Source: Paramacrobiotus metropolitanus (lineage: Eukaryota; Tardigrada; Eutardigrada; Parachela; Macrobiotidae). Taken from it: a stretch of DNA of 64,000 bases. Position numbers and translations under genes: made by a program. Below the pieces are notes generated by a model. The model saw only the letters and a list, made by a program, of their open reading frames with translations. It had not been told where the DNA came from and did not search any database. How positions within the stretch are numbered: the first letter of the stretch is position 1; each line of letters opens with the position of its first letter. The DNA lies in contig NW_026570223.1 of assembly GCF_019649055.1 (NCBI RefSeq), forward strand, positions 1,612,001 to 1,676,000, read 5' to 3'. This document shows positions 8,307 through 35,069 of the stretch, piece after piece.

Positions 8307-8854
8307 CTATTCACTGCCGCTGTGGCGTCTGTAGTTGTAGTCACCAATTTTGTTGGCCAGATCCCGGTCAGGAAAATGTCCCAGGGCTCGCTCCATGGAG
8401 TTGTTTTTATCGGGATAGTATTCGCTCTGCGCTCGTTCGGCATCGCATTCTTCGGCATTGATGCCCATGATATCGCCAATCGGCCGGCCGCGATTCATGT
8501 CGGACTAAAATCACAAGCATATGCTGCTTCCATTTCAAGTTGTCACAATCATCAATAAACTAGATTTTATTTCGGATAGGCGAATTATTTACTGTACGTT
8601 GATTTTCCCGGGAATCAAGGATAAGCATCACAATTTAATTCCGTAATTAATATAAATACCGGTAACAGTCACTGTGTCAGGAGAGTCAGGCCACAAAATA
8701 AAATGCTGCTGTCAGCAACTAAGGTTTTAATTAATCATATAAATACGATTAGCACTGCAACTGGGCACAGACACGTGCACGCAGTTATACTTTAACTTAC
8801 CGCGACACCGCGAAGCGACGCTAGTTCATCGGGCTTTGCTAATTGGCGATCCAT
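8307..8854 (-). CDS. Small hydrophilic protein family, copy 1 (two exons, about 83 aa)
   Basis: Exon 1 is 8801-8854 (18 codons, MDRQLAKPDELASLRGVA) and exon 2 is 8307-8504 (65 codons plus TAG). The intron starts GTAAGT and ends TTTTAG, phase 0. Exon 2 carries the family core: CDAERAQSEYYPDKNNSMERALG. It starts SDMNRGRPIGDI and ends in YRRHSGSE. There is no signal peptide or membrane segment; the composition is charged and glycine-, asparagine- and glutamine-containing, suggesting a disordered soluble protein. This copy has the most divergent exon 1 of the four long members. Four related copies lie at 20.6, 24.3, 32.1 and 34.3 kb. I do not recognise the family. It is weakly reminiscent of plant seed-maturation (SMP/LEA) proteins in composition and in an Asp-Ala-x-x-x-Gln-Ser pattern, but that is speculation. 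Confidence 0.82.
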
Positions 8855-9563
8855 AAATAAAAACTTCAGGAAATTTGAGGTTGATAAAACTGATTAAGCG
8901 TTGAATCGTGCAGATATTTCGGCTTGCCCCTAATAATTTAACAGAATAATTACAATTCGCAAAGTTGCAGTATGAATTTGCTTACGAGCACTACCAGCCA
9001 GCTTATATATTGCCTTTTGATCTATAAAATTTTTGCTGATCTAGATATGGGAATTCTCCATGTTTATATTTTATTGTTGGCTGTACATGGCTGATCAGCT
9101 GAGACACCATTGCTTGACCTTTCGCAGATTCATACTCATTCAAATGTGGGCCTGCTATTTATAATTCACACTTTGTTCGTGTCTCCGACTCTCCTGCATG
9201 CACTTATTAACTGGTTCATATTTTCAACACATCTAGCATGCATCTGCCGGCACTCATGTTCCTAAACCGCGGCCAAAGTTATGTAAATACTGAGCATTTA
9301 ATAAGCGTAGTTCATTCAGCTTCCAGGTCTCTCGCACGCGCCAATACAGCATCATGTCAAAATAAGCCTGTGCCTTATCAATGTGCAAATGGGCATGTGC
9401 CTTATCGGTGTACAAATATTTCCGTAAGTATCACTAGTTGTCAGTTAAAAAAATCTTCCATACTTCATTGGCATAAGGAAAAACTAAAACAAAAGTAAAA
9501 ACGAAATTTCCGCGATAAGACATGCGAAAATGAATTAGGCTGTAAAAAAATTAGCCAAACAAT
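8855..9563. other. Intergenic, promoter side of small-protein copy 1
   Basis: Contains the TATA-like box of copy 1 and the 3' flank of the decayed VWA gene. A plus-strand 86-codon frame at 9238-9498 has no splice or similarity support. Nothing else recognised. Confidence 0.45.
9003..9010 (-). promoter_or_regulatory. TATA box of small-protein copy 1
   Basis: TATATAAG on the minus strand, about 150 bp upstream of the copy 1 ATG. The position matches TATA boxes found at similar distances in all other family members, which is the main support. Confidence 0.5.
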
Positions 9564-11145
9564 TTATTGCACTTTCTCGAAGAAAGATTGCAAATTCTTC
9601 AGTATAACGCTTTCTCTGTTAGGAGAAATGAGCTTCCGGATAAACGTAAGCGCCTTATTGGCAATGGCCTGCCAAATCGGCATTTGACCGGCATGTTTAG
9701 CATGCAGATAAGCCACCAATAACAGCGTAGCCTACACCGCGGCATCCAGATTCCCACCGGCTTGCTTATCCGCATCGTTCTTGGTAACGCCCAGAATGCT
9801 TTCCAAGTTTCCTGAAAACTCCCAGCTACCGTTCCACCGCTGCAGATTTAACACTTGATTCAAAACCGGCTTGGGAGCAGCGTCGATGCTTTGCGGCTTC
9901 TCGTCTACAGCTAGGTCTCCGTCGTCGTCATCCAATGGCGTTTCACATTTCTTTCCGCCCACTTCCGCCTCATAGGAGTGCACCACAGTATACCTGTTTC
10001 CGACAGCATTGCTTAACTCATCGTCGCTCGACGCCTCACCGATGGCCTCAATGTACGCCATTTTTCTGCTTTTGCTGCCCACTTGCGTCTTATGGTTCTT
10101 AGAATACAGGTTTTCAGTCGTAGCATCGTTGCTTAGCTCTTCGTCGCACGACTCCACATCGCTGTACAGCCTGTACTGAATGCATGGCCGTTCTTTTTCT
10201 CTTACGACTCCCACCAACTTTGGCCGGAGAGCTCAAGGCAGAAGAATACCTTGATGGCATTCGCATCACAGACGTACGGTTGTCGCAAAAGGTCGCGCCC
10301 AACTGGACAGGAATTTCGCGCAATTGCATCTCCTTACCCTCCCAGCCTTCTCGCTGTTCAATCGCTAAAAGCGAAACATACTTGGACATCACGCCGTATC
10401 GCAAGCAAATGCCAATGATTTTATCTTTATGATCTGAATTAATTTTTTCCGTCTTCGTGCCTGACGGTTCGACGTTACGGTGCTGTAACGATCCATTGCT
10501 GACGGACGAGTGTACATCTACTGGTGAGGTTCCCAGGTATTTAACTAATGCTCTCCCTGCTAATATGGCTACACTTCGAGCTTTGTCAGGGCTTCTACCG
10601 AAGGGATATGCAAAAGCTATCTCGTTCTTCACCTTGTCATTTAGTTGTAATACAACTTTTTGACTCTGATCAGTTTTTTCAATTTCGAAGAACGCGTAAG
10701 CGATTTGCCGGTCACCACGGAAGACGGGCGGCAGAAAATAAGGCACTTGTTGCATGTTCTTCACTCCTTCCCACAAAACACTCCCTTTCACAACGGCAGG
10801 CTGCAACGCTCGTTCCAGATGGCGACCAATTTTGTCCTCCAGGATTTCTCCGTGTTTGCAAAATTCCGATTTCCCGTTGCCGGCGAGTGCGATTCTGTTG
10901 ACCAGTGAGCGACTGCAACTATCGCCGATGCCGAATGAGAATACTCTGAAATTCGACGTATTTTTCCTAACTAGATCGATGACTTGTTCTGTGATTGTCG
11001 ACTTCACCATCAGTCAGCACAAATAAATGCCGAGAGAAACCGGAAAAAGGTGCGGTTTTAAATATCTTGTTCAGAGGTTTCAAAATTTCGGTTCCTCCTA
11101 ATCCTGCTTTAGTGGTATCAGCATACTTTTTTGCCACTTCGAACG
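9564..11145 (-). pseudogene. Decayed, 5'-truncated VIT/VWA protein gene
   Basis: Homologous to exon 2 of the two intact genes at 11.4-14.1 and 15.7-18.7 kb. Recognisable blocks in order: YADTTKAGLGGTEILKPLNK, LFVLTDGEV, RVFSFGIGDSCSRSLVN, GKSEFCKHGEILEDKIGRHL, VPYFLPPVFRGDRQIAYAFF, YGVMSKYVSLLAIEQ, and the C-terminal WNGSWEFSGNLESILGVTK. The VIT exon and the first part of the VWA domain, including the DxSxS metal site, are missing upstream of about 11145. Frame changes occur near 10995 and near 10210, and an in-frame TAG at 9732-9734 interrupts the C-terminal domain before LLLVAYLHAKHAGQ. With a missing start and three disablements it cannot make the full protein. It is a dead third member of the tandem array, and its order and strand match the intact members. 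Confidence 0.88.
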
Positions 11146-11442
11146 AATACCAACATCAAAACATAGAGTCGCTTTGTTTTCCAAATTTTTATTCAGGCAA
11201 ATAGCCATTTTTTAAGCGCTTGATGAACAGGTATCCATTTGCGGTGCATCACACCAAATAACGAATAAACCAAAATATTTAATAACTTGTACTCAATTGT
11301 TTTGAATTTTTATGCGTTGCTGTAATTATATTTTGAATATAAGCAAAATCTGTAATTCGTCAGTACAAAACGAAAATTACTCTAGGAAAAGGAAATGTCA
11401 GAAAACCAGTAGACATATAAAGCTTCTAGGTTCAGTATCTTT

Positions 11443-14068
11443 TTAAAACAAAGACTTGAAATTGTTAAGTACAGTGCTTTCTTGGTCGGTAGTAATCTGC
11501 TTCCGGACGAACGTCAATGCTTTGTTAACAATGGCTTGCCAAACCTGCACTTGACCGGCATGTTTGGCATTCAGATAGGCCACCACCAGCAGTGTAGCCA
11601 AGACAACTGGATCCAGCTTTTCCCCGGCTTTCTGTTCTGCAACGCCCTTAGTAACGCCCAGAATATTTTCCAAATTTCCTGAAAATTCCCAGCTGCCATT
11701 CCACTGTTGCAGATCTAACACTTGATTTAGAACCGGCTTTTGAGTGGAATCGATCATGTCTGCATCCTCACCTTTCGACTCATCGTTGCGACGTCGTGAT
11801 TTTTTCTTGACAACTGCTCCTTCGTTCATGCTTTCGCAAACTGCTGCTTCTTCTTCGCATTCCATTGCATCGCAGTCTGCATCCATGCTCATGCATGCGT
11901 CAGCTTGAATCGCCGCCCGTCCTCTATACGAATTTCCAGATCCTTTTTTCGCCCTAAAAGCAGCGCCGGATGGCATACCCATAAGAGGTGCGGCGCAAGC
12001 CATCCGCGCCATCCTCATTCCGTACATCGGCATCGGCCTATGAAGCATCGGCGTGGACACCTGTACAGGAATCTCTCGTAACTGCATCTCTTTTGCTTGT
12101 CCACCTACTCGCTTTTCAATCGCCAAGAGCGAAACATACTTGGACATTACACCATATTTCAAAGAAATGTCCGTTATCGCATTTTTGTTGTCCGTATCAG
12201 TTTCTTCCTTCTTCGAGTCAGGCAACTCCACATTTCGCTTTTGTAACGACCCACTGCCACCGAGAGAAGCTGTTCCAGTTGGAGCGGTTTCCAGATACTT
12301 AATCAAAGCTCTCGCTGCCAATTTGGAAATGCCTTGATTTTTGTCAGAACTCATGGGATACTTAACAGTTGCTTGACCCTTCAATTTGTCATTTAGTTGT
12401 AGTACAACTTTTGGACTCTGCTCTATCTCTCCAATTTCGAAGAATGCGAAAGCGATTTGCCGGTCACCTCGGAAAACAGGCGGTAGCACATACGGCACTT
12501 GTTGCACGTTCTTCACTCCTTCCCACAAAACACTCGCTTGTACAACGGCAGGCTGCAACGCTCGTTCCAGATGGCGGCCGATTTTGTCTTCCAATATTTC
12601 TCCATGTTTGCAATACTCTGATTTCCCGTTGCCGGCCAACGCGATTCCGTTGACCAATGAGCGACTGCAGCTGTCGCCGATGCCGAATGAGAACACTCTG
12701 GAATTCGACGCATTTTTCTTGACCAGATCGATAACTTGTTCTGTGTTGCTGACTTCTCCGTCGGTCAAAACAAATAACTGGCGGGAGTATCCGGAAAGAG
12801 GGGCGGTTTCAAATATCTTCTTCAGTGGTTGCAAGATTTCTGTTCCTCCCAAATTGGCAGCTGTGGCATCAGCATAGCTTTTTGCAGCTTTGAACGTTTC
12901 CTCAGAGTAAAGTTTGCTTTCAGGAAACAGAGATTCAAAAGTGCTACCGAATCGGTAAAAGTTGAAATAACAACCCTCCGGAATGCTTCGCAGAAAAATT
13001 TGCATCGCTCGTTTCGCGTCTTCGATTTTATCTCCTTCCATCGATCCGGAGCAGTCCACGACAAAGACCAGTTCACTTTGCACTTTTTGGTCATCTTTTT
13101 CGAACTGCGGGACAAACGCGTACATCCCAACATACTGATCACCGTCGACGCGCTCCACGAAAACGTAATGTTGAGGATTATTCTGGATCTCAATATCGAT
13201 TACCAAATCACGGTCAACTGGTTGCTGCTGCGCACCGAAAGTGACCTGCAACCAAGAATCAAATTATGTATTATCGAATGGGCCATTGCACGTAATTAGA
13301 ATTATAAGCAATGTACTGTAGTTTAATCTACACATTCACAGCTACACGCAAATACGAGTACAGTATTACGCTGAATAGATGTTATCCAATGTAGAAACGA
13401 CAGTTGACACTGCGAAAATTAAAGCATACCTGAACGGATCTCTCTCCAGTAATGTTAACAGCAATCGGATGCGATACAGAAGAAACTGACTTTACTATAT
13501 CCAGCGTTTCAATTTTGGCATCCAGCGTCGCTTTATACGACACCGTTGCAGCATATTTTTCCGGCGGCGCAGTTGTCCCACTCGTGCTTTCCGGATTGGG
13601 ATTGTATCTCGGGAAGAGCGCCATGGGAATGAGGAGTCGCTGCTTCGTCTCGCTGACGCTGTCCAATGTGCAGACGTAATTGATGCTAACCACGCACTCC
13701 TTCCCGGGCGGCAGTCTGCCCACACTCAGCACGAAGGTGTCGTCGCTGCGATCCGCCTGGTCCAGAAGATACGCGCCGTCTCCGCGTTGCAGCGCGGCGT
13801 TGTATTCCTTGAAGGCTTCCTCCTTCTTCTTGAACTGACTGATCAGTGTGCGGTCGTCGATCTTCACTGTAAATCCTGTGACAGCGGCTTGGTCGTTCAT
13901 CGGGAATCCGTACACGCATTCCAGATCCGTGGATTCGACGTTCTGGAATGTCTGGTTAATAGTGATGGAACCGGCAAATCCTTTCACATCCACATCGTAA
14001 TGAACAGCGGTCAGCGGAATCGGTTTATTTGATTCGGCAATAAATAACCCACAGCATGATTTTTCCAT
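11443..14068 (-). CDS. VIT + VWA domain protein, VWA5A-like (copy B, about 813 aa)
   Basis: Two exons: 13430-14068 (213 codons) and 11443-13245 (600 codons plus stop), with GTATGC..TTGCAG splice signals, phase 0. Exon 1 is a VIT domain (residues about 1-140) with family phrases such as SITINQTFQNVES, ECVYGFPMNDQAAVTGF and VGRLPPGKECVVSINYVCTL. Exon 2 holds the VWA domain (about 270-450). Its MIDAS motif DCSGS is at about 277-281, with a threonine in GGTE at about 348 and the aspartate of LTDGEV at about 375, so metal binding is probably intact. A low-complexity linker at about 620-710 is Met/Arg-rich, then Cys/Glu/Asp-rich, then basic (VVKKKSRRRN). The C-terminal domain LDLQQWNGSWEFSGNLENIL to KHAGQVQVWQAIVNKALTF matches the WxG-type end of VWA5A proteins. 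No signal peptide, so probably cytosolic. Exact substrate or partner unknown. Confidence 0.9.
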
Positions 14069-14197
14069 TTTCTGACAGTATGTCCAAGAAAATTACTTTC
14101 TCATCCAAATGTAAATTTGTTCCAGAAGTGGAAACTGAATTCTTGTTCTCCTGACTAGACTACTACAAGTAAATCCGTCAGCTGCTACCGGAAGGCT

Positions 14198-14205
14198 GTT
14201 TTTAT
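14198..14205 (-). promoter_or_regulatory. TATA-like box of VWA gene copy B
   Basis: TATAAAAA on the minus strand about 130 bp upstream of the ATG at 14068. Placement resembles that in the neighbouring small-protein genes. Motif only; no transcription start evidence. Confidence 0.4.
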
Positions 14206-15698
14206 ATGTGAAACTGCTTTCTTCAAGTTATCATATCGTGTTTCGTGAAGTCTGGCTAAAGATAGCTGAGAAACCGCTTTTGTAAGATATGTTAGTCATG
14301 AAAATCAATGATCTCATTCGGCCGAAAACACAGGAGGGTGCTCTGTGTGGTACACAGTAAAGCGTGATTTAAAGTACTCGTACTACCGTGGTGCGGCTCG
14401 TTTACCAGAAGTTTGCAGCTGGCAACAGTGCGTAATGCCGAAAGGCTCGGTTATTTACGGTATTACGATGTTACGATGTTTACTCCGAGAACTGAATGCT
14501 CCAACCATGCGATCGCGAGTGTACAAGTACATGTGATATGAATAATGAGTAAACGATCGATGATATCTGTATGAATTTATATGAACTCAACGTCAGATGC
14601 TGCCGTATTACTACAGAGCCCTGTATACTGCACTATTGTGAGCTGTACATGTGAATATAAATATAGATACTTCAAAGTATACAAAAATGTTTATTGTACA
14701 GCCAACCTTTGCCTGGCAGTACACAATCTCTGTACAGTGACAATTATCCGCATTTTGGTGCGCAAATAAGCTGGTTTTGAATACGTCTTGCATTACATGA
14801 CTCTATTAATTAAGTCTTCAGATGCAGTACTGTGCTGAACGCTATCAAATAACTTTTACTGTGCTTATTTTTATTTACAGTACTTTCCCATGTGTTGTAC
14901 CAACTGTGAGTTCATCCAAGAACACTGTATATATTCAAGAATTATGTTTATTCCCGGAAACTTCAAATAAATTTTTAGGAGAACATATTCTTTTACAGAA
15001 TAATTTTACTTACTATATACCGGTATCTGTGGTTACATGTACTGCAGTGCCGTTCTTGGTTAATTCACATTTACCGCCGGGCGCCGGCAAGCTGGCATAC
15101 GCTGTACTAAGTTTGTAACGCAGTAACAAAGTACTGTGCGTTTGTGGTTCGGGATGCGAACCATGCGCAGTGGTTGCCGCGAATGATGTTTTTACGTTAT
15201 GAGTCTGCGGTTGTAGTTCTCGGATTTTGCAAGAAATCATCATCGTGACTTTCAGTTAAAACATACACAATAAAGTCATGTGAATACTTCTAGATACAAG
15301 TCTACATTGTAAATACATAAATTGCACTCGAACAGGCACTTCGCAAATCTCCTCTAGGCTCTAGCTAGAAATTTGTCCTAAAGTTATTTTAGAATCTGGC
15401 GTACGTATATCAGCTGTGTTAATATTGCCGCAATTAATGCACATGAATTCAGCTGATTGTACTCGTATTTCCAGGCCAATTAAAAATTTACTCAAAACAA
15501 GATCATATGTAAGATGAACATTTACGGTAAAAGAAAAAAAAACAACGCCCTGGGAATTCCAAACTGATAGCCTTAGAAGCGAGCCAGAATCACTGCTAAT
15601 TCTGTAGTTTCTTCGGTTAAATTTTTAGTAACTACACTGTACGTGTGCGCTATACAAACTCAAAACTAATAAAGAAAAACAAATCTTTCAAACTCTGT
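14206..15698. other. Intergenic between VWA copies B and C
   Basis: AT-rich spacer with several 60-100 codon open frames on both strands, none with coding character. GTAC/TACAGT words are frequent. A short inverted repeat GGTTCG..CGAACC occurs at 15147-15162. No gene recognised. Confidence 0.45.
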
Positions 15699-18693
15699 TT
15701 AGAACAAATTTTGCAAATTCTTTAACACGACAGCTTCCTTCTCAGCAGAAATGTGCTTCCGAACAAAGGTCAACGCTTTGTTAGCAATGGCTTGCCAAAT
15801 GTGCACTTGACCGGCATGTTTAGCATTCAGATAAGCCACAACCAGCAATGTCGCCAGGACAACCACATCAAGCATCTCGCCGGCGTTATTCGCTGCGGAA
15901 TCCTGAGTGACACCGAGAATTCGCTCTAAATGCATCGAAAATTCCCAGGTGCCGTTCCACTGCTGTAAATCCAAGACCTGGTTTAAAACCGGCTTGTGAC
16001 ACAGTGTTGCGTCGAACATCTCCACGTCGCCGGTTCGCTCCATGTCGGAATACTGCTGCTGCTGCTGCGCGGGCTGATGTGATCCAAAATCGGTTTGTGC
16101 ACCAGAATTTTCATACTGTACGCCAGCACTTCCAAACGATGTAGCGGACGGTGTAGCAGAATTCTGAAGCTCGGATAAGATATCGATGGCAGCAGCAGAA
16201 TCTTTCGACAGTTCATGAGCGAAGGGAGCAGAATAGTGTGTCCATGTTCCTGCATTTCCAAACGAAAAACCAGCAGTGTTTGCAGTCGTGCTGGCTGATG
16301 TTGAACTGCCAAATAAAGATTGTGCCCCAGAATTTCCGAACAATTGCGTTCCGGCAGTTGCAGACGCCATCGAACGTCCAAAAGTCGGATGATTTCCAGA
16401 ACTGCCAAATGTCATACCTCCAAAGCTGGAAAATGGTTGCGCTCCGAAATTCCCAGACGAGCATGGAGTACTAATATATGAGCCAGAACTTCCGTAGACA
16501 CTTCCAAACAATGGTGGACCACCTGACTGAGACAAAGCCTGTCCAAACTGGACCGGCGCTGAATTTCGGAACCAACCTCCAATTGCCTGTTGAGATTGTT
16601 GATAGCCTTGGAAGACACTTGTGGGCGTAGCCTTGTATCCTAAACCAAACTGCGAGCGCGACGCTGACATTTGCACAGGAACTTCTCTTAACTGCATCTC
16701 CTTTGCTATACCGCTTACTCGCTGTTCAACAGCTAGGAGCGAAACGTACTTACACATTACACCATATTTTAGGGATATTTCTGTAATTTTTTTCTTATTA
16801 TTCGGATCACTGGCTGCCTCCTGCATCATTTGTATCGGATCATTATTTCGTCTTTGTAATGAACCACCGTTGGCAGCCAAATAGCTCCCACTTGGAGCTG
16901 TCTCAAGGAATTTTATAAGGGCTCGCGCTGCGAGTTTTTGGATGCCGGGACTGCTTTCGTTCACTGGGTACTTGAAAGGCGTTTGCTCGGCCACTTGGTC
17001 TTTGAGCTGCAGGATGACCTTTGGACTCTGCTCTGTCTCTCCAACTTCAAAGAACGCATAAGCGATTTGCCGGTCACCGCGGAATACGGGAGGTAGCACA
17101 TACGGCACTTGTTGAACGTTCTTCACTCCTTCCCACAAAACACTCGCTTGTACAACGGCAGGCTGCAACGCTCGTTCCAGATGGCGGCCGATTTTGTCTT
17201 CCAATATTTCTCCGTGTTTGCAGTACTCTGATTTCCCGTTGCCAGCCAACGCGATTCCGTTGACCAATGAGCGACTGCAGCTGTCGCCGATCCCGAATGA
17301 GAACACTCTGGAATCCGACGCATTTTTCTTGACGAGATCTATTACTTGTTCTGTGTTGCTAACTTCACCGTCGGTCAAAATAAATAATTGCCGAGAAAAA
17401 CCGGAAAGCGCAGGAGTTGCAAAAATCTTGTGCAACGGTTGAAGGATCTCTGTTCCTCCCAAATTGGCAGCTGTGGCATCAGCATAGCTTTTTGCAGCTT
17501 TGAACGTTAATTCAGAGTAGAGTTTGCTTTCAGGAAACAATGATTCAAATGTACTACCAAAGCGGTAAAAGTTGAAATAACATCCTTCTGGAATGCTTCG
17601 GAGGAAAATTTGCATCGCCCGCTTCGCGTCTTCGATTTTATCTCCTTCCATCGATCCGGAGCAGTCCACGACAAAGACCAGCTCAAGCTCACTCAGGACT
17701 TTTTGGCTATCTGTTTCGAGTTGTGGGACGAACGAATACATGCCGACAAACTGATCACCGTCGACGCGCTCCACGAAAACGTAATGTTGGGGATTATTTT
17801 GGATCTCAATATCGATTACCAAATCACGGTCAACTGGTTGCTGCTGCGCACCGAAAGTGACCTACAACGAGAATTAGTTTGGGAGCGGTTCGGTGAATTT
17901 AGCAACAGAAATCTACTGGGTTAAAGTTCACACCTGTATGGGCGTAAATTAGAAATTAAACATTTGCATAATTCAATAAAATTAGCAAAAAATATATTAC
18001 AACAGCTAACAGGTCGAGCCCCTTAAAAATATTAGGCAGGCTGAAATCCAAACGTACCTTAACAGATTTGTGTTCAATAATGCTAACAGCAATCGGATGT
18101 GAGACAGAGGAAACTGATTTCACTTTATCCAAAGTTTCGATTTTGGCATCCAGCGTCGCTTTATACGACACCGTTGCAGCGTATTTCTCTGGTGCAGCAG
18201 TTAAGTCGAGTACACCTGCCGGATTCGGATTGTATCGCGGGAAGAGCGCCATGGGAATGAGGAGTCGCTGCTTCGTCTCGCTGACGCTGTCCAGTGTGCA
18301 GACGTAGTTGATGCTGACCACGCACTCCTTCCCGGGCGGCAGTCTGCCCACACTCAGCACGAAGGTGTCGTCGCTGCGATCCGCCTGGTCCAGAAGATAC
18401 GCGCCGTCTCCGCGTTGCAGCGCGGCGTTGTATTCCTTGAAGGCTTCGTCCTTCTTCTTGTACTGACTGATCAGTGTACGGTCGTCGATCTTCACGGTGA
18501 AGCCCGTGACAGCGGCTTGGTCGTTCATCGGGAATCCGTACACGCATTCCAGATGATCCGTGGATTCGACGTTCTGGAAAGTCTGGTTAATAGTGATGGA
18601 ACCGGCAAATCCTTTGACGTCCACATCGTAATGAATAGCGCTCAGTGGAATCGGTTTGTTCGATTCAACAGCAAATAATCCACAATTCAACAT
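15699..18693 (-). CDS. VIT + VWA domain protein with FG-repeat linker (copy C, about 932 aa)
   Basis: Two exons: 18058-18693 (212 codons) and 15699-17861 (720 codons plus stop), GTACGT..TTGTAG, phase 0. The VIT exon is nearly identical to copy B. The VWA MIDAS motif DCSGS is at about 278 and LTDGEV is conserved. What differs is the linker. Residues about 610-825 form a Gly/Ser/Gln/Phe-rich tract with about 12 FG dipeptides in contexts like PPLFGS, SSFGGMTFGS, TQLFGN and SLFGSS, ending in a QQQQQ run. This looks like an FG-nucleoporin segment, not the Met/Arg and acidic linker of copy B. The C-terminal domain (LDLQQWNGTWEFSMHLERIL to the end) is shared with copy B. The gene structure is intact and complete. 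Function unknown; the family fold suggests a cytosolic protein-interaction role. Confidence 0.9.
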
Positions 18694-20571: not shown

Positions 20572-21822
20572 TTATTCGCTCTCGCTGCGACGTCTTTGAT
20601 TGTAGTCTCCCATGCGGCCCTCCAGGTCTTGGTCAGGAGCGTGACCCAGGGCACGCTCCATGGAGTTGTTGCGGTCGGGATAGTATTCGCTCTGTACACG
20701 CTCCGCATCGCACGTGTCGGCATCAATGCCGGATACGTCGTTGATGGGGCGGCCCAAGTCCATATCCGACTGAAAATTAATAAACTCACTGTCAAATTCA
20801 AATCAAATAAAAGTACCGTACTGTAATGACCACATCAGCATATGCATGTGCAGTGCGCCGCAATATATAGCACCTATTTGTTATGATAATGTCCACACGC
20901 ACTGTACATCAATAATTATACCAATTATATAACAAAGTTATCAATTTATCATGCGCACTAAGCCACTAAGTAAGAAAAATAATTACACACGACTATAACG
21001 CAGGCGCTCCAACGATATACTCTACTTGTATTATCCATGCATTTAGAAACAACCCTCAGATTATCAGTTCCGCGAAAGGTAAACTTTTTGAAATTTGTCC
21101 ATATGCAAAACAAATCAAGAATTCAGGATTGATTACTGTAAGTACAAGTGCGCAGTTAAACCTGCGGAAATGAAGAAATTAAAGGTCACTTTGTAGCAGA
21201 CTTTATTATCAGCCGAAAGAAATTGCTAGTTTATGAAATCTTGCTTACTACCGAAACACAAATTTTATTGTGAGTTTTACAGCAGTGCTAGCAACAGAAG
21301 TATTAAAGTTATTTTAGCAGTACTTGTCTTAGGTGCATATAGTACATTCGCAATATTAATTGCACAAATGCGCAATAACAACAATATTCTCCGTCCTTAT
21401 AATTCGTGCTCGCATAATTAATAGTAAACACCTAACAATACTAATTACACATTGTAAGCGATTTAAAGTTTTCACAAATCTAAATCAGTAAGTAGTGTTA
21501 AGCACGATCGGTAGTTTAACAAGTACTCTGCGCTTAATGCTACATACAAAACCAGTTGGCCGATTCACTTTTAAAATGGCAGTCAGGAATGTTTCAATCT
21601 AATAATGCTTACAATTTTAAGCTAATAGCTAGGATTATAAGTATATGGCTAAGGTTAATGTGGGTAAAACTTAAAGAAATTAAGACATCGGAATTTAGTC
21701 TTACCAACGAAAATACAAGCATGTTTTGCTCTTAATAATAATATATTAACGCTAAAATATAAACTTACAGCGGCACCGCGGAAGGCAGCCGGTTCACCTC
21801 CTTGTCTCGTTTGACGGTCCAT
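20572..21822 (-). CDS. Small hydrophilic protein family, copy 2 (two exons, 83 aa)
   Basis: Exon 1 is 21769-21822 (18 codons, MDRQTRQGGEPAAFRGAA) and exon 2 is 20572-20769 (65 codons plus TAA). The intron is about 1 kb with GTAAGT..TTTCAG, phase 0. Exon 2 begins SDMDLGRPINDVSGID, carries QSEYYPDRNNSMERALGH and ends RRRSESE. Exon 1 matches copies 3 and 4 (GGEPAAFRG), which suggests that it is the typical form and that copy 1 has diverged. Hydrophilic throughout, with no membrane segment. It is divergent to copy 3, whose ATG lies about 2.4 kb away on the other strand. Confidence 0.85.
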
Positions 21823-21954: not shown

Positions 21955-21962
21955 TTTATATA
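21955..21962 (-). promoter_or_regulatory. TATA box of small-protein copy 2
   Basis: TATATAAA on the minus strand, about 135 bp upstream of the ATG. Same relative position as in the other four copies. Confidence 0.55.
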
Positions 21963-24127: not shown

Positions 24128-24134
24128 TATAAAA
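24128..24134 (+). promoter_or_regulatory. TATA box of small-protein copy 3
   Basis: TATAAAA 140 bp upstream of the ATG at 24268, the same distance as in copy 4. Confidence 0.6.
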
Positions 24135-24267: not shown

Positions 24268-24843
24268 ATGGACCGACAATCGCGTGATGGTGGTGAGCCA
24301 GCGGCGTTCCGCGGCGGTGCGGTAAGTACATGTGCGAATTATTACAATGTTAAAAGTTTCGAATTGGCTTTTCTTAAATAGTAGTTTTTCTTTGGTTCGA
24401 TCATACTTTAATCATCTAGCGATCTGTTTTTCAATTTTTTCAATGTTGCTTATCAGCCGATAACTTTACAAATCCATTTTGCCTACCATGCAGGTTTTAG
24501 TTTTTCAAGTTTCTTTGTTTTTATTAATACTAATGTTGCATGGGGCCAGCGTCTTTTGTACGCCTCTGCGAATACCGTCTGTACTTATGGTATCTAGTGG
24601 AACCTAGTTTAAGTTAAACAGGTAGAATAAATTTATTTGTAATTACAGTACGACATGGATCTTGGCCGTGCCATCAACGATGTAGCAAACATTAATGCGG
24701 AGACGTGCGATGCCGAGCAAGCTCAGTCCGAATACTATCCCGACAAGAACAACTCCATGGAACGCGCTCTAGGCCGCCAACCGGAAGGACTCCAGGACTT
24801 CCAAAACCAGCAACAGAACCGTCGACGCAGCGAGACGGAATAA
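24268..24843 (+). CDS. Small hydrophilic protein family, copy 3 (two exons, 82 aa)
   Basis: Exon 1 is 24268-24321 (MDRQSRDGGEPAAFRGGA) and exon 2 is 24649-24843 (64 codons plus TAA), with GTAAGT..TTACAG splice sites, phase 0. The protein runs YDMDLGRAINDVANINAET, then CDAEQAQSEYYPDKNNSMER, then ALGRQPEGLQDFQNQQQNRR and RSETE. The predicted protein is identical to copy 4 over all 82 residues, although the coding DNA differs at 12 synonymous sites. The Gln/Asn-rich, Arg-rich tail and lack of hydrophobic stretches point to a disordered protein. The function is not known; the strong TATA promoter and multiple copies would suit a gene that needs high or rapid expression. Confidence 0.87.
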
Positions 24844-24959: not shown

Positions 24960-25849
24960 ATATCGACAGCTCAACCAAATGTTCATTTTCTGTTACATTA
25001 TTACGCCTGCTGCTAATTATAAGTTCCTTTCTTGTAAATGAAATTTCATGAAATTAACCTAAATATTATGCGCTCAACCAGGAAATAAAATAAATTACAA
25101 TGACTTGCTGAAGCCGACTTCACAATGATAGGGGCGTGAGCTGTATTACGACTACATTGCTTCTGCAGAATGTACTGGTAAAAATATGATAGTGTACCAG
25201 AGTTTAACAAGTCTTTTTTCAAGTTGAGTACGTACATGAGAGCCCAGAAAGGTCTCACGAGTTTCCTAAGGAAAAAGCAACTAACTGTAGTTACCAAAAT
25301 TTTATGCTAACAGACCGTAGAAGGGCCAAAGTTGAACATTTTCAGGTTTGTTTCTTAAATGGCATTTTATAGTGCGGCTAGATTGTGTATATAGTGCTAG
25401 AACAGAAATTCAGTTCAGTAGTTCCCCCGGTTCCGCATACCGCTGTTTCTGTCTGTGCATCGTACTGGAACAGAAATTCGAACGCCGCATACGAATTTCA
25501 GTACAAGCCCAGCACGGATGAATATTGGCCGATGATTATTAAAAAATAAGTAATTCCAAGGATGTTTTGCTTTGCGGTCGCTCACAGACTGTCATAATAT
25601 TAATAAACCCGTACCTATGTTTAGTAATATCTATATTATGATACACTTTACATAGTTCAATCGAAACACTGACTGTTTACTTGTACAGTACATAACTTGC
25701 AGTGATGACTAACGTGATTTTGACTAACGTGTTAAGTTACATGAATTTTTTACTTTGTACTGTACTCGTACTTATTGTTAAGTAGCAGCTCAGATATATT
25801 TCTACTGTTCTGGGTCAAGTTGTGTTAGAACAGTGTGCATTCTTATCGC
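24960..25849. other. Intergenic with one copy of the long-repeat end motif
   Basis: Mostly featureless. At 25511-25529 it carries AGCACGGATGAATATTGGC, the same motif that ends both long-repeat copies at about 27123 and 28786. A minus-strand 83-codon frame at 25046-25297 has no support. Confidence 0.5.
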
Positions 25850-27149
25850 GTCCATGGTAACAAGCTTATGATTGACCACTGGACCTGAACAAATGATCTT
25901 GGCAAAAAGTCAACAATCTTGGATCCACCGCTACACCTAGAGAATTTTGATGTACTTTAAAGCAACAAAATTGGTGAAGTAGAAGCCGAGATCCTTTGCC
26001 TCAAAGGACAGGTCCCGAAGTTCTGGCACAGATAATCAGTATTCATATAACCAGTTTACGGGATCTACATCCGTACACAAACTTCTGCGGCGCAAGTCTG
26101 TTACAAAATGCACACTTCGCAACGGTTAATCGCATTGGTCACAGCCGCTAAGAAAACTACGAAATTTAAGAAAGAGAAAATTTAAGAAAACTTGAGAAAC
26201 CCTAAGAAAGCCTAAGAAACCTAAGATACCTAAGAAACCTAAGAAACCTGAGAAATTTAAGAATACCTAAGAATGCCTAAGAAACCTGAGAATACCTAAG
26301 AAAACCTAAGAAACCTAAGAAACGTGAGAAACCTAAGAATACCTAAGAATACCTAAGAAACCTGAAAGTACCTAAGAAACCTAAGATATCTAAGAAATAT
26401 CGTATATGAAAGAATACGAGGTATATCGATCACGCTGGTGGGATTGACTGCGATTACTTTTTGCACATGTTTCTTAAATTTCAATACTTTGTAACGTGCC
26501 GATGCCGAAGGCCGCGGTCTGTCTCGGTTTTTCCGAACGGTCCGCGAACCGACAATGTATTTACCATGTATGTCTATGGGGGCCCATGGCAACAATTTGT
26601 TTTTGGGGCTACTCTTCCCTTTTGGGGCGTATCGATGGCGCAATAGCGTAAGAACATTCGCGCCGTTGAGACGAATTTAACGCACTTGGCCGCGTCGAAA
26701 TCGGTTCAGCCGTTCGCCCAAACATTGGCTACATTATCAATCGTGTATACGTGGTTACGGATGTAGATAACCAGTTTACGGAGCACTACATCCGTAACCA
26801 ATTTATCGGCTTCGGCTTTTGGTGATTAATTAATCTTGTTTTTGTTCGCATCGAGGCCGGTGGCCGAGGCGTGTCGTGTCATTTACGCACATGGGAACAA
26901 CTTGTCCATGTATGTCTACGGAGGCCCATGGTAACAACTTTCCTTTCCGGTCCCCTTTTTTCCCCTCGAGGCGCATCGTCTCGGTAATAGCGTAACATCC
27001 ACCGCGTCGTTGCAGCGGGTCTGGCGCACTTGACCGCGTTGAAATCGGCCTACCCGTTCTCCCAAACATAGGTTTTTTAACTTTACTCTGTCACGGTTGT
27101 TACGGATGTAGTTAACAAGCTGAGCACGGATGAATATTGGCTTACGACG
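25850..27149. repeat. Long interspersed repeat, copy A
   Basis: Homologous to 27415-28812. Order of shared blocks: TCCATGGTAACAAGCTT with TGACCACTGG (about 25852-25885), TATTCATATAACCAGTTTAC (26040), TTGTTACAAAATGCACAC-type block, the CCTAAGAAA minisatellite (26160-26395), and two diverged internal sub-repeats. Each sub-repeat reads GCCCATGG(C/T)AACAA then a block ending in CGTTC(G/T)CCCAAACAT. A 14-bp stem GGTTACGGATGTAG / CTACATCCGTAACC (about 26753-26799) follows, and the copy ends with AGCACGGATGAATATTGG. Small minus-strand frames starting MFGRT recur in both sub-repeats of both copies but are short and lack known motifs. Probably a non-coding or decayed mobile element. Confidence 0.85.
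26160..26395. repeat. Degenerate minisatellite, CCTAAGAAA-type unit of about 9-10 bp
   Basis: About 25 head-to-tail variants of CCTAAGAAA or CCTGAGAATA with frequent 1-base changes. Embedded in long-repeat copy A at the same place as in copy B. Confidence 0.9.
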
Positions 27150-27414
27150 ATTTTAAGAAAACTTTGTATTTCATATGCAGTATACGTATTATTGTTTAGG
27201 ATGTAATTTAGTTTCCCGAAAAGTCGGAATGGAAAAGCCAAACAACTGCTCAGGATGGTTGTCCGCGACGTGCGTACTGCGTTGTTGACCTTTAACACCT
27301 AGGGCTTGTTTTGTTTTTTGCTCGCCTGGTAGGTCTCTGCTCATTTTGCCGTATTCTGAAATTGCCGAATTAATAAGCTGCTTTAGCCAGTAAAGTGGCC
27401 GAAATTATCTGTTC

Positions 27415-28812
27415 ACTCAGCCCGTAAACAGAAGAAACGCAGAGGCAAAGCCGAAGCTTTTCTTGTTATTTGAGTGCAGTATATAATGTGCCCGTGGTAA
27501 CCGGCCAGCCATGTTAGCCTTATGGCATCCATGGTAACATGCTTTTGAGTGACCACTGGGTTTGATATTGTGAAGATAGCAAACAACGACTGGCCTTAGA
27601 TCACCCGCCAGACCGCGACGTTTTTAGAACACTTTGAAGCAGTAAAATCGGATGGGTAGAAGGTGAGATTACCGCGGTCTAACGGGAGATGCCGAAAACC
27701 TGCAAGAGATGTTTAGTATTCATATAACCAGTTTACGGGATCTACATCCGTACACAAACTTTTGCGGCGCAGATTTGTTACGAAATGCACACTTCGCAAC
27801 GGTTGATCGCATTGGTCCCAGCCGCTAGGAAAACTACGAAATTTAAGAAAGAGAAAATCTAAAAAAATTTGAGAAACCCTAAGAAAGCCTAAGAAACCTA
27901 AGGAAACTAAGAAACCCAAGAAATCTAAGAAACCAAAGAAACCTAAGAAACCTAAGAAACCTGAGAATACCAAAGAAACCCTAAGAAAGCCTAAGAAACC
28001 TAAGAAGCCTAAGAAACCTAAGAAAACCTAAAAAATCTAAGAAACCTAAGATATCTAAGAAATATCGTATATGAAAGAATATGAGGTATACCGATCACGC
28101 TGGTGGGATTGACTGCGATTAATTTTTGCACATCTTAAATTTTCAATACTTTGTAACGTGCCGATGCCCAAGGTCGCGGTCTGTCTCGGTTTTTCCGAAC
28201 GGTTCGCGAACAAACAATGCATTTACCATGTATGTCTATGGGGGCCCATGGCAACAATTTGTTTTTTGGGGCTACTCCTTCCCTTTTGGGGCGTATCGAT
28301 GGCGCAATAGCGTAAGAACATTCGCGCCGTTGAGACAAATTTAACGCACTTGGCCGCGTTGAAATCGGTTCAGCCGTTCGCCCAAACATTGGCTACATTA
28401 TCAATCGTGTATACGTGGTTACGGATGTAGATAACCAGTTTACGGAGGACTACATCCGTAACCAATTTATCGGCGTCGGCTTTTGGTGATTAATTAATTT
28501 TGTTTTTGTTCGCATCGAGGCCGCTGGCCGAGGCGTGTTGTGTCATTTACGCACATGGGAACAACTTGTCCATGTATGTCTATGGAGGCCCATGGTAACA
28601 ACTTTCCTTTCCGGTCCCCTTTTTTCCCCTCGAGGCGCATCGTCTCGGTAATAGCGTAACATCCACCGGGGCGTTGCAGCGGTTCTGGCGAACTTGACCG
28701 CGTTGAAATCGGCCTACCCGTTCTCCCAAACATAGGTTTTTTAACCTTACTCTGTCACGGTTGTTACGGATGTAGTTAACAAGCTGAGCACGGATGAATA
28801 TTGGCTTACGAC
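27415..28812. repeat. Long interspersed repeat, copy B
   Basis: Second copy of the element at 25850-27149, with an additional conserved 5' block (GAAACGCAGAGGCAAAGCCG at 27432, then GCATCCATGGTAACATGCTT). The copy includes its own minisatellite, both internal sub-repeats, the inverted pair GGTTACGGATGTAG / CTACATCCGTAACC (about 28418-28462) and the same end motif. Identity to copy A is high from about 27715 onward and lower before it. Confidence 0.85.
27838..28055. repeat. Degenerate minisatellite, CCTAAGAAA-type (copy B)
   Basis: Same unit as at 26160-26395 but with a different internal order of variants, so the array has been rearranged since the two copies separated. On the minus strand it yields a spurious FLGF-rich open frame. 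Confidence 0.9.
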
Positions 28813-29758: not shown

Positions 29759-29918
29759 ATTCCAGGATCTGATCTGTTTCGCTCTCTGACGATTCGCTGG
29801 AACTTTCAGATGAGTCGTCGCTACTGATGCTGCTCGAAGACTCATCGAGCGCTTTTCCAGCGATCTCCAGCTCACAAAGGGTTTGCAAGTCGCGCAGGAG
29901 TTTTTTACGAGAACTCAT
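29589..29918 (-). pseudogene. Harbinger-type transposase N-terminal fragment
   Basis: ATG at 29918 opens MSSRKKLLRDLQTLCELEI. A Ser/Asp/Glu-rich stretch is followed by SSKRFVFDRTVVPKRHDWME and then SLFLEEALQFPLRSVFYYL, resembling the segment before the DDE domain of PIF/Harbinger transposases. The frame stops there, with no DDE catalytic domain. It overlaps the end of the plus-strand fragment, which is expected if an internal deletion joined two convergent genes. Confidence 0.5.
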
Positions 29919-30207
29919 ATTGGAACACGTTTGTAAAAATCTAACAAATAGGAAAGGAAACTACGTGTCAAAAAAGAAGTGTTGAAAAGCAAAACAAAGT
30001 GTGACTTATCTGAAATCACCGACACATGGTGAAAGATAAATTTAAAATTAATTCGAATTACTAGTAACTGTACGGGCACACATTCTGAGTTAGTCTCGAT
30101 GCTCTGTAACGCTCTGTAAGATTCAGTGGTGCAGGATTGGTAAATTCACTTTTACAGAACTTTCGGCTCTGTATCTTACAGAACGCATTTAAAGTGCCTT
30201 TCGAGTC

Positions 30208-30387
30208 AGCCTATTATCTATTACGTTAGCAGTTGGCACTTTTTCTTATGAGGTGAGGTCGATCAGGCCAGTATCTAGATCTGATGCCCGGTTCTACAAA
30301 TGTTGACCTTTCGCCATTAAAGTTTGTTTCGCTTGTGCCTTGGCTGCTAGTTTTCATTTTATTCTATAACTAACCGAATCATTCGTT
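30208..30387. other. Spacer between transposon and repeat copy C
   Basis: No feature recognised. Confidence 0.4.
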
Positions 30388-30710
30388 CACTCGGTACGTG
30401 GTCCACAAGAAACGCAGAGGCGAAGCCAAAGCTGTTTCTTGTTAAACCCTAAATTGGCCGTGGTGACAGACAAGCGTATGTTAGCCCTATGGCATCCATG
30501 GCAACAAGCCTTTGAGTGACCACTGGGCTTATCCTGCTTGTGAGAGTGAAAAAACTACTAGCTTTGTTTTACTCTACGTTTTGAAAGGATTCTGTGAAAA
30601 TTTAAAGCTGCAAAATCGGCTCAGTGGAAGCTGAGAACATATGTAGGTAACAAACGGGAGAGGCCGAAAACCTGCAAGAGATGTACAGCATTCATATAAC
30701 TACTTCAATG
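30388..30710. repeat. Long interspersed repeat, truncated copy C
   Basis: Matches the 5' part of copy B: AAGAAACGCAGAGGCGAAGC (30409), GCATCCATGGCAACAAGCC, TTGAGTGACCACTGGG, GGCCGAAAACCTGCAAGAGA and CATTCATATAACTA. The homology stops where copies A and B continue into the minisatellite. Confidence 0.8.
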
Positions 30711-31935
30711 CAACGAAACTCGGAACCCTTCTCAGCTGCGGCAATAGCCACTTCTAATCTCGGCCGACAACTGTTTTATAGTTGTTACTGAATATAAGCT
30801 CGGTGCAGTTTCTAAAAATATATTGTTGGCATTCTTTGGGGGAAAATCTATCCAGTCTGTATCACAAATGACTGCTGCGCGAATCCGCTAAACTGAGCCC
30901 GAGAATTAAGAAAGGAGCACAGGACAGCCTTATGCGATTTTGGTCTCCAGTTTTACAGTAATTCTGAAAACGGCTTTTGGGACCGGGTCTGTAAATCTGT
31001 AGATTGAAAAAAGACCATTCATGCAAAAGCTAGGTGTTCTTCTTGTCAGTATTCCATCTGGCCAGCTTGAATAATTCATGAACAATATCGATATCGCGCA
31101 TGTTATGCAGGTTACAGAGCAACTGGTTTGCATAATTCGAATATCGAGGATTGACTCTCTATACTGTACTCTGCAGAATTTATAATCATAATTTATGTAG
31201 AATTTTGCTTAATTGCTTACTAAGGTATTCATACTAATTCGAACACTAAAGAAACCTACCTTACTGTAGAATTTCGTTCGCCAAGGAATTTTACACTGAC
31301 CTATGTTAAATGCTTAAGTACTAGTGGTGACAGATATTTCTTTTTTATGTTTAAGTAGTAGCAATGTCAGATACGAGTACGTACATTAAAAAATTGTGCG
31401 TAATTGTGCAATACGTAAACGCAAATAACCGCCGAACACAATCGACTTCTTTTGCCGTTTGGCCAGTACAGTACAAAAATAATTTGATCCAAAATCGAAC
31501 AGAACAGTGCAAGACATTTTGTATCTTTTTTATCTTTCTTCTGACACGCGCTTACATGTGAGATTGTTTTCGTTTTCAGTCGTCTGCGCTTCTCACTAAT
31601 GATCAACCCTCAACAACATCCGTCAGATGCATATTTTGGCATCGGAAGATGCCATATTAACGAACCATGCCATGCCGATCGAACGCCTCATTTGTAACTG
31701 AGAAAGCCGGCTGTGTTTACGCAATGGTTATAACAAACTAAATTTAGAAAATCATATGGGACACCGTTGACAAGATGACCCATCAGACTAGTGCGAATAT
31801 TCATAGAATCTGATGATCTTTCCACAATACGCAGAAGCAAAGTATATATAAGCAATACGCAGAAGCAAAATATATATACGAGTATATGCAAAGTCAATGG
31901 GTAACTTTTGGCATCTAAACAAATCGTCCAGCGGC
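30711..31935. other. Intergenic, upstream of small-protein copy 4
   Basis: No gene recognised. A short tandem duplication GCAATACGCAGAAGCAAA(G/A)TATATATA lies around 31828-31880, about 60-110 bp upstream of the copy 4 TATA box. Confidence 0.5.
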
Positions 31936-31943
31936 TATAAAAA
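31936..31943 (+). promoter_or_regulatory. TATA box of small-protein copy 4
   Basis: TATAAAAA 140 bp upstream of the ATG at 32076, exactly matching the spacing in copy 3. Confidence 0.6.
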
Positions 31944-32075
31944 CACCGGGTGATGTACGGAACGTCGTTAATTTGAAAACTGCAAATTGAATACTTAAAT
32001 TAAGTCTGATCGCTTTGATCTGGTTTTTCTGTCTGAGATACAACAGTTGATACTCCGTCGTAACCTTTCTTTACC

Positions 32076-32737
32076 ATGGACCGGCAATCGCGTGACGGTG
32101 GTGAACCAGCGGCTTTCCGTGGCGGTGCGGTACGTAGTGGCAGTTTAATATTGCTCTAGCTATTAACTACTCTATAATTAAATGTATTCGCCATAAACTT
32201 GGTTAATTTTTCAAATCCTTTCCATTTAATCAAATCGCGGTTGCACCGGTAAATTTCGCTGGCAGTACAATGCAAAGTATAACGCAGTAAACATGTTAAT
32301 AATAATCTCAGAGTTTGAATGATTCCATATTATATGGTGCATTCAAAGGTCGTTCCCTATTTCCTTTTTTTACCTAATGTGTGGGAATTTTTTGTATTTC
32401 ATTTCTCTTTTTCAGTTTTTGTGTTCACAGTGCATGTATCTACATCAGGATCTTACATGTGTGGTAGTCTTGTGGAATTCAGAATAATCCGATCAATGCA
32501 TCAAACGCGCATGAGAAAACATAATTCTATTAATAATTATAGTACGACATGGATCTTGGCCGCGCTATTAACGACGTAGCGAACATTAATGCGGAGACGT
32601 GCGATGCCGAGCAAGCTCAGTCCGAATACTATCCCGACAAGAACAACTCCATGGAACGCGCTCTGGGCCGCCAACCGGAAGGACTCCAGGACTTCCAAAA
32701 CCAGCAACAGAACCGTCGACGCAGCGAAACGGAATAA
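32076..32737 (+). CDS. Small hydrophilic protein family, copy 4 (two exons, 82 aa)
   Basis: Exon 1 is 32076-32129 and exon 2 is 32543-32737, with GTACGT..TTATAG splice sites, phase 0. The encoded protein is identical to copy 3 (exon 1 MDRQSRDGGEPAAFRGGA; exon 2 with CDAEQAQSEYYPDKNNSMER). Five synonymous differences fall in exon 1 and seven in exon 2, with no amino-acid change. The introns have diverged in sequence and length (about 413 against 327 bp). Thus coding sequence is held by selection, by gene conversion confined to exons, or both. A stretch of about 110 bp in the middle of exon 2 has no differences at all. Confidence 0.87.
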
Positions 32738-32814
32738 GGCTTGTCGGCACCAGTTCACGTCAAAGGACAATTTACTTTTAAAGTGACCTTAATGTGACAC
32801 CGTTCACGAATGTC

Positions 32815-32820
32815 AATAAA
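32815..32820 (+). terminator. Polyadenylation signal of small-protein copy 4
   Basis: AATAAA 78 bp after the stop codon and 12 bp before the conserved hairpin. Motif only. Confidence 0.5.
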
Positions 32821-32831
32821 CACCCCTGCGG

Positions 32832-32866
32832 TTGTACATATCTTTCCGAAAGTGTGATATGTACAA
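32832..32866 (+). promoter_or_regulatory. 3' flanking hairpin of small-protein copy 4
   Basis: TTGTACATATC (32832-32842) pairs perfectly with GATATGTACAA (32856-32866), an 11-bp stem with a 13-nt loop. The loop region also contains the small palindrome CTTTCCGAAAG. It lies just downstream of AATAAA, near where 3' cleavage would be expected. Counterpart at 24924-24959. Confidence 0.65.
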
Positions 32867-34190
32867 AATATGTTCGATATTATTGTAATTGTTGTAATTT
32901 TATACGTCACTTAAACTGCATTAATTTTGTGCGATTTGCGCATCGGAAATGGCTGTAATAAAGGAAACAATATTGCTTTCCGGCTTTTAACTTTCACCGA
33001 CCCTTATGGACCATATGTATAACCGATTATTTACTTCAAAAACTTTCGATCAAAATCCGAAATGCACAAATTTAAACATCAGAGTGAAACATGAGTCATC
33101 AACAATATTCTGCTAAGATAAAGTACGTAGACAATAGCGTCTTTAAAAGTACTGTAAATCACCTGCATCGCAAAATTTTCTGTTCAGAATACGACTACGA
33201 GTAGCGGAGTAGGTGAAATCATTCTTGTATTCTTGTGCACAAACCATGTACTGTGTAGTGTGTACTGTGTAGTGTATAAGCGTGCGACAAAACCATTTAT
33301 TACTGCACTAAATTTATTTATGCCAGCGTTAACACGATGTATTATTTCTCGTTTACACTGGATTAGCTTTAACGCAATTATCACAACGATACTTAAAAAC
33401 TCAGTACTTACAATTTACTCAGTAAGTCGCCCTGTTTTTATGAATTTTTCCCAATTATTAATTATTCTTATTCGCATTTCTGCAAATGGGTCCTTGTTAT
33501 ACGAATACTAATGAGCTGCGCCAGGATTTTCGTTTTCGGCGGCTGACTTCTGTTCCCCTTAACCAATTTTCATAGAATAAAGGGCTTTAGAATCCTCTCA
33601 ATGTAGTGATGGTTATCGGCTAGTTAAATTTTTCGAATACATCTGTTTCGGAAGTCCAGTGGACATTGAAACTTTACTGCCAATTATAATTAACCGCACG
33701 TCTGTTATCTACGTTCTCTTGTCAGCAACCGACACGTATGCTTACTAGCAAATATTATTGTATAATTGTAAATTTGTAACAGGCAAATTCTACAGTATTA
33801 ATTTTCGTTTGGTACTTTTTGCAAAACCTTTATTATTTTTAAATGTTCAGCAGCGATTTATAAATTTTGGATTACAGAGCGGACTACTTAGAATGCAATG
33901 CACTGCATAGCGGCAACTTCCGTTGGTTCCAAATCCGAATATCTTAAAATAGAATCATGTTAGTCATCAAATATTAACACAAAGATGCCGGGTCAGCCTG
34001 TATCACACCTCCCCGATGTTTCAGCGAGTCCCCATCGCGAAATGCAGTCTCATCGGTTTAAAAGAGGGTGTGTTTATGGATAACACCGCGTATTGCAACC
34101 CGCCAACTGCAGAGTTTTCGGTAGCTTCCGGCCAGCCGGGAAATGTTCCGCGGAGGCTGTCTACGGATTAACTGCAACGACATTCCGGGG
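32867..34190. other. Intergenic between small-protein copies 4 and 5
   Basis: No gene recognised. A 14-bp tandem motif (GTACTGTGTAGTGT) recurs at about 33248-33275. Open frames on both strands at 33184-33511 have no coding character. Confidence 0.45.
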
Positions 34191-34197
34191 TATAAAG
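34191..34197 (+). promoter_or_regulatory. TATA box of small-protein copy 5
   Basis: TATAAAG about 109 bp upstream of the ATG at 34300. The DNA just upstream is GC-richer than its surroundings (CCGGCCAGCCGGG). Confidence 0.55.
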
Positions 34198-34299
34198 TGA
34201 GACGATGGTAAAGTTCACCAGATCATTCGGCTTTCCATGTTCTTAATAAAGCTTTGCTTTAATCTGAGCGATTTTTCTCAATAACTGTTACTTTGTAAA

Positions 34300-35069
34300 A
34301 TGGATAAGCAGACCAAGCAAGGAGGTCCTCCAGCCAAAGGCGTAAGTAGATCACCAACGAGCTAATGATTTAATTATTTAGTATTTTTGGAACAAGGGTA
34401 GCTTAGTTTTCAAAAATAATTAACTTGCTGGCCAGAACTTCTTAGTCCAGTCAGAAACTCACTGCATCGGCCTCAGTTATAAGTGCGTTCTTTCACATTG
34501 CAGCACTGATACTGCTCATACAGATAAACCATACAGTACTGTTGAAAACTGTGTTTTTAAAATTTCCTTAAGTTTCTGAATCTTAAAATTTTAATGTGTG
34601 CGGAGCTAATGCATTCGTTCTTCGCCCTCTAACGGAGCTGCTATTAATTGACCTTTCTTATTTGCCGCTAACCTAGTAGGGTAACAACGAACAAGTGACC
34701 AGCTATAGTACCCGTAGTAAATATAGCTACTTGTTTATTTACTTTAGGTGTATTAACGGAATTACTCTATTCTGTAATTATCAGAATTTTGTTATATAGT
34801 ATGTACGTTCTGTTAAATAATAACATACGTGTTCCACCGTTTATTGAACTACTGTTGGTCCATGTACCTGTCTAACATATTAATCACATTGTTATGGCGA
34901 TAAATTTTTTACGGCGCGGGTTTTACAGGAAGATGGCACGGAAGAGCGGTCCATTAAGGATGTACAAGACATCGATCCCGAAAAAACCGCGGCCGCAAAA
35001 GCCCAGAGCGAGTACGTTCCCGACAGCAATAACTCCATGGAGAAAGCACTAGGGCATGGACCGAAGTGA
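34300..35069 (+). CDS. Small hydrophilic protein family, short divergent copy 5 (about 60 aa)
   Basis: Exon 1 is 34300-34341 (14 codons, MDKQTKQGGPPAKG) and exon 2 is 34929-35069 (46 codons plus TGA), with GTAAGT..TTACAG splice sites, phase 0. Exon 2 reads EDGTEERSIKDVQDIDPEKT, then AAAKAQSEYVPDSNNSMEKA and LGHGPK. It keeps the exon layout, the MDxQ start, the D-I/V-x-x-I-D segment and the AQSEYxPDxNNSMExALG core. It lacks the Gln/Arg-rich tail after ALGH. The protein is Lys/Glu/Asp-rich. It is the most divergent copy and so the most useful for defining the conserved core. Confidence 0.8.

Follow-up and report, generated by a model that had tools for sequence, protein, structure and literature searches.

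A single-locus family of five small hydrophilin-like proteins with a conserved core in the tardigrade Paramacrobiotus metropolitanus

What are the five short, two-exon genes that lie together in a 64,000-nucleotide stretch of the genome of the tardigrade Paramacrobiotus metropolitanus (contig NW_026570223.1, positions 1,612,001 to 1,676,000; this whole stretch is called the window below), and what might their small, highly charged products do? The genes, G1 to G5, are real coding genes under purifying selection at the protein level; they make up the family as one cluster that has expanded in tandem, and by composition their products belong with the hydrophilins, a physico-chemical class. Constraint is concentrated in an 18-residue core, an aspect that an earlier, sequence-only reading of the window did not remark on. 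We propose, tentatively and at a strength somewhat short of probable, that these proteins form a hydrophilin-like family restricted to its lineage, in which a constrained core serves for binding, and that they have a role in stress or desiccation.

Five coding genes and their divergence

The sequence-only reading had described five two-exon genes that start with MDxQ, are split by a phase-0 intron and encode products of 60-83 amino acids, and the spliced models bear this out in full: in 5/5 cases an ATG, a GT donor, an AG acceptor and a phase-0 intron yield an open spliced frame. It had also placed the genes along the window, and all five are present there, with the correction that G2 has its first exon 1 kb further along than the 20.6 kb given for that gene. 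G1 and G2 are on the minus strand and G3, G4 and G5 on the plus strand; from G1 to G5 the proteins are 83, 83, 82, 82 and 60 amino acids long and the introns 296, 999, 327, 413 and 587 bp. The C-terminal tail, 19 alignment columns in length, is missing from G5. Scanning the window for exons that open with MDxQ and run to an in-frame GT gave exactly five starts, one per gene. It is quite likely that RefSeq already annotates the genes in this species, as uncharacterised proteins. The exons, and the regions over which G3 and G4 match, are as follows.

8801 to 8854, minus strand: G1 exon 1 (MDRQLAKPDELASLRGVA), with ATG, GTAAGT donor, phase 0
8307 to 8504, minus strand: G1 exon 2, with core AQSEYYPDKNNSMERALG and stop codon
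21769 to 21822, minus strand: G2 exon 1 (MDRQTRQGGEPAAFRGAA), where a weak match to the G3 query (E 0.077) also falls
20572 to 20769, minus strand: G2 exon 2, with core VQSEYYPDRNNSMERALG and stop codon
24268 to 24321, plus strand: G3 exon 1 (MDRQSRDGGEPAAFRGGA)
24649 to 24843, plus strand: G3 exon 2, with core and stop codon
32076 to 32129, plus strand: G4 exon 1 (G4 protein identical to that of G3)
32543 to 32737, plus strand: G4 exon 2, with core and stop codon; 12/12 coding differences from G3 are synonymous
34300 to 34341, plus strand: G5 exon 1 (MDKQTKQGGPPAKG)
34929 to 35069, plus strand: G5 exon 2, C-terminally shortened, with core AQSEYVPDSNNSMEKALG and stop codon
24236 to 24846 and 32043 to 32740, plus strand: matching regions of G3 and G4

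Short proteins are readily over-predicted, and the frames could in principle be chance open frames or dead copies. This is contradicted by the single architecture that the five spliced frames share and by the divergence of G3 from G4, whose coding sequences differ at 12 sites, none of them nonsynonymous, a pattern with p = 1.6e-8 without constraint (from site counts). The second exons of the pair are 94.5% alike and their strong local match stops 3 bp past the stop codon, which likewise speaks against chance, and we regard such an origin as extremely improbable. For the remaining nine pairs the ratio of nonsynonymous to synonymous divergence (dN/dS) is 0.17-0.31 and dS is 1.1-2.2; the family is therefore old. 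The G3 and G4 introns are not alignable (z -0.1 against 30 shuffles), and the flanks keep some likeness (z 11.2 for 300 bp upstream and 4.8 downstream). Gene conversion of the exons could explain why synonymous sites in this pair are closer than the introns, and alike exons beside unalignable introns would be accounted for either by exon-limited conversion or by selection acting on synonymous sites.

The core and the composition of the proteins

A common core, AQSEYxPDxNNSMExALG or close variants of it, had been read in the five proteins and is found in all of them, with the minor correction that in G2 it starts VQSEY. It is 18 residues long (AQSEYYPDKNNSMERALG in G1) and follows the pattern Y-x-P-D-x-N-N-S-M-E-x-A-L-G. 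Invariant columns number 14/18 in the core and 11/65 elsewhere, or 11/42 if only ungapped columns are counted (p = 0.003 in 20,000 column shuffles over columns 1-64, with gapped columns taken as variable). Identity per pair, calculated from G1, G2, G3 and G5, is 87% in the core, 55% in the first exon, 49% in the stretch before the core and 42% in the tail. That conservation is focused on so short a core speaks for a specific binding partner in addition to bulk composition. At the C-terminus, 4/5 proteins carry RR[RH]S, which we take to be a kinase consensus and which is missing in G5; it may be a kinase switch.

The main rival to the hydrophilin reading arises here. The proteins could be a regulatory family without a role in stress, disordered adaptors or inhibitors whose core would dock on one enzyme or scaffold, with RR[RH]S as a phosphorylation switch and with use in development, signalling or the germ line. 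A core identity of 0.87, where the other three regions reach 0.42-0.55, has more the look of a binding motif than of bulk composition, and the presence of RR[RH]S in four of the five proteins also counts in favour of this explanation. However, G5 is wholly without the putative phosphosite, and all five proteins pass both hydrophilin cut-offs. We consider a regulatory family possible, and lean against it.

Those cut-offs, as given in passages of two papers, are a glycine content above 6% and a hydrophilicity index above 1 (PMC7448490, PMC11277543). From G1 to G5, glycine makes up 8.4, 9.6, 8.5, 8.5 and 10.0% of the protein and the index is 1.12, 1.33, 1.44, 1.44 and 1.39. As a control, 80-residue tiles of other exons were scored and 0/67 pass; among open six-frame segments of the window 10/475 do so, three of the ten being the second exons of G1, G2 and G5. 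The proteins are acidic (isoelectric point, pI, 4.6-5.1), with a grand average of hydropathy (GRAVY) of -1.12 to -1.44 and a charged fraction of 0.32-0.35, values which, with the cut-offs, support the earlier description of them as small, charged and without a hydrophobic core. Disorder prediction had been suggested as a follow-up in the sequence-only reading: the charge-hydropathy margin places 5/5 members on the disordered side, together with three CAHS open frames (3/3), and places FABP-like, VWA1, Dicer RNase III and MATH-BTB open frames on the folded side.

Hydrophilin composition and predicted disorder would also be expected of a generic LEA-like shield, in which composition alone matters. 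The core, however, is near-invariant despite a proportion of synonymous differences (pS) of 0.54, its proportion of nonsynonymous differences (pN) being 0.126, whereas the tails drift (pN 0.426). With no LEA or seed maturation protein match in Pfam either, we judge a shield of this kind to be highly unlikely.

Relatives, promoters and neighbouring genes

No sixth member was found in a genome-wide search of the 169.8-Mb assembly (533 contigs) with three protein queries, two of them taken to E = 10, although unassembled stretches could conceal one. A degenerate pattern for YxPDxNNSME occurs at the places of the five genes and at no other in the 169.8 Mb (reversed control 0); a second degenerate pattern, with one mismatch allowed, occurs at the same five and at one mismatched place (control 1 place). 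Both patterns were built from the five members, so it is the lack of further matches that counts.

Beyond this genome, the earlier view of the family as unrecognised holds for Pfam, NCBIfam, the PDB and the prokaryote and viral sets; animal and plant proteomes, including those of other tardigrades, were outside the scope. The four distinct members gave 0 matches at E <= 10 to 24,736 Pfam families (HMMER filters on), and NCBIfam held no significant relative (a single match, E 0.1). A profile search of the PDB returned Sla1 SHD2 (E 0.09) and then an esterase (1.5), both judged to be chance. A peptide pattern is fitted by 73 stretches in bacterial and archaeal genomes and 35 in viral contigs, none of which encodes a relative by tblastn, and horizontal transfer from prokaryotes or viruses was rejected on these counts. 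The Sla1 SHD2 match spans 34 positions; the SAM-like fold to which it might have pointed was also rejected, because G5, which ends four residues past the core, is without the region that follows it. Searched as letter strings, the four core peptides occur in none of 5.39 million open papers. By sequence the family would appear to lie in none of the described families compared, and across curated libraries, the PDB, prokaryotes, viruses and this genome it is apparently lineage-restricted. Another possibility is that it belongs to a described animal family, or to one widespread in other tardigrades, an issue of naming that overlaps the functional readings. The searches covered only one eukaryote genome and curated libraries miss many lineage-specific families, both of which leave room for such a family; the absence of any match in Pfam families from all of life, and of any open paper with the core peptides, makes it somewhat unlikely.

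The seed maturation proteins of plants (SMP, PF04927), like the LEA families otherwise described in Pfam, resemble the family in being hydrophilic, and we presumed a vague D-A-x-x-[VA]-Q-S likeness to SMP; membership of SMP or LEA was then rejected, as no member matches Pfam at the threshold used. A genome search with PF04927 found nothing over the cut-off, its sole weak match (E 9.9) being on another contig, and LEA families other than PF04927 were covered by the Pfam search of the members only. The CAHS proteins share with the family a hydrophilic, predicted disordered character and the same genome, in which a CAHS D query has 20 matches with up to 71% identity. None of the 20 is on the cluster's contig, and with this query the members show no homology to CAHS. 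The three CAHS open frames differ from the family in length (181-282 amino acids, flanks included, against 60-83) and in glycine (2.5-5.0% against 8.4-10.0%). TDR1 (tardigrade DNA damage response 1) is likewise a small tardigrade protein without a known domain; compared by description, it is 146-291 amino acids long and basic-rich according to passages of one paper (PMC11233135), whereas the present proteins are shorter and acidic. Hydrophilins such as yeast Hsp12, Sip18 and Stf2 are also small and charged, and 5/5 members pass both cut-offs of that class; the family differs by the constraint on one core, and is set apart from Hsp12 and Sip18 by the Pfam search only.

A TATA box some 110-155 bp upstream of each gene, as first read, is present in all five promoters in the form TATAWAD.

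9003 to 9009, minus strand: G1 TATA box, TATATAA, 155 bp upstream of the ATG
21956 to 21962, minus strand: G2 TATA box, TATATAA, 140 bp upstream
24128 to 24134, plus strand: G3 TATA box, TATAAAA, 140 bp upstream
31936 to 31942, plus strand: G4 TATA box, TATAAAA, 140 bp upstream
34191 to 34197, plus strand: G5 TATA box, TATAAAG, 109 bp upstream

Such a box lies 105-156 bp upstream of 4.4% of random window positions, and of 6.0% within 19-37 kb; the five promoters are paralogous and their TATA boxes therefore not independent occurrences. One CAHS start has a TATA box at -132 and a FABP-like gene one at -92, so a box near such a distance does not set the family apart; a second CAHS start that was examined has none within 400 bp. 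In this genome such a layout may be usual for promoters.

The window as a whole has a GC content of 37-45% in 4-kb steps and gave 0 Rfam families at the gathering threshold and 0 tRNAs; outside the five genes it contains the following.

880 to 1841: a 481-bp unit in two head-to-tail copies, 97% matching
9572 to 18693, minus strand: a VIT + VWA (inter-alpha-trypsin/vault-like) gene in tandem copies, between G1 and G2, the copies 71-89% alike at the DNA level in local matches
25842 to 28812: between G3 and G4, a direct repeat of 1.3 kb (89% identity) that has 215-bp repeats nested in it, together with arrays of units resembling TAAGAAACC
37212 to 39107, plus strand: an intron-interrupted polyubiquitin gene with five LRLRGG repeat ends, directly downstream of the cluster, recognised from the letters
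43798 to 46635, plus strand: a Dicer-like gene with dimerisation and platform domains and a below-cut-off PAZ match, its RNase III domains being in two further open frames
54927 to 55643, plus strand: an open frame encoding the DNA-binding domain of a Tc5 transposase

A possible role in stress or desiccation

A role in stress or desiccation is made more plausible by the composition of the proteins and by a eutardigrade host with 20 CAHS matches, and passages of two papers describe hydrophilin genes as induced by osmotic stress (PMC11277543, PMC7448490). In the hydrophilin-like reading that we prefer, the TATA promoters would allow strong, switchable expression, and the small intracellular chains would be mostly disordered and remain soluble. 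On a given partner, be it a client protein or a complex, the core would fold into a short helix, and on water loss or stress the proteins would shield or hold that partner alongside the CAHS proteins. Dsup is described, in parts of two papers, as absent from this lineage or not recognisable in it by BLAST (PMC11233135, PMC13389832). A sharper version of the proposal is that these are sequence-specific stress or desiccation hydrophilins of tardigrades, perhaps of the Macrobiotoidea only, whose core folds on one conserved partner and which would be target-specific rather than a bulk shield or gel; this we find distinctly doubtful.

Several observations weigh against a protective role. None of the three CAHS open frames passes the glycine cut-off, so that passing a hydrophilin cut-off cannot be equated with being a protectant, and the second exons of G3 and G4 fail the cut-offs on their own, the spliced proteins passing. 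In the part of one paper that bears on this, Hsp12 is apparently the only yeast hydrophilin to mediate desiccation tolerance (PMC7139818); Sip18 and Stf2 are also credited with it in a passage of another (PMC11277543). An AlphaFold2 model of exon 2 has low confidence (predicted local distance difference test, pLDDT, 58; predicted template modelling score, pTM, 0.19), with a short helix predicted at SMERA of the core and another in the tail; because it rests on a five-row alignment with two rows identical, it says little for or against disorder and does not demonstrate it. No heat-shock element common to the five promoters was found in the 600-bp upstream regions, in which one-mismatch elements occur in 2/5 and exact ones in 0/5, and heat-shock control was rejected. 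Bias towards C-ending codons is raised in the family (z 7.7 for G1, G2, G3 and G5 together, with VWA and Dicer as background). It is also raised in unrelated exons of the window (SURF4 6.6, Tc5 4.8, MATH-BTB 4.3, GRIP 3.2, VIT 2.5 and 3.2), so codon bias alone does not show high expression and was rejected as proof of it.

According to passages of one paper (PMC9145152), a few protein families account so far for drying tolerance in tardigrades, several of these families are confined to particular lineages, and it is suspected that components have been overlooked. Public RNA-seq from P. metropolitanus is listed in part of another (DRR144971-DRR144973 and DRR144978-DRR144980; PMC9592077). The hydrophilin and regulatory readings predict sharply different outcomes in dehydration RNA-seq, and a compact, single-locus family of five genes, in a species with public data from hydrated and dehydrated animals, can be tested quickly. 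If the genes are stress-induced, their products would be an unusual kind of protectant, one that carries a constrained recognition motif.

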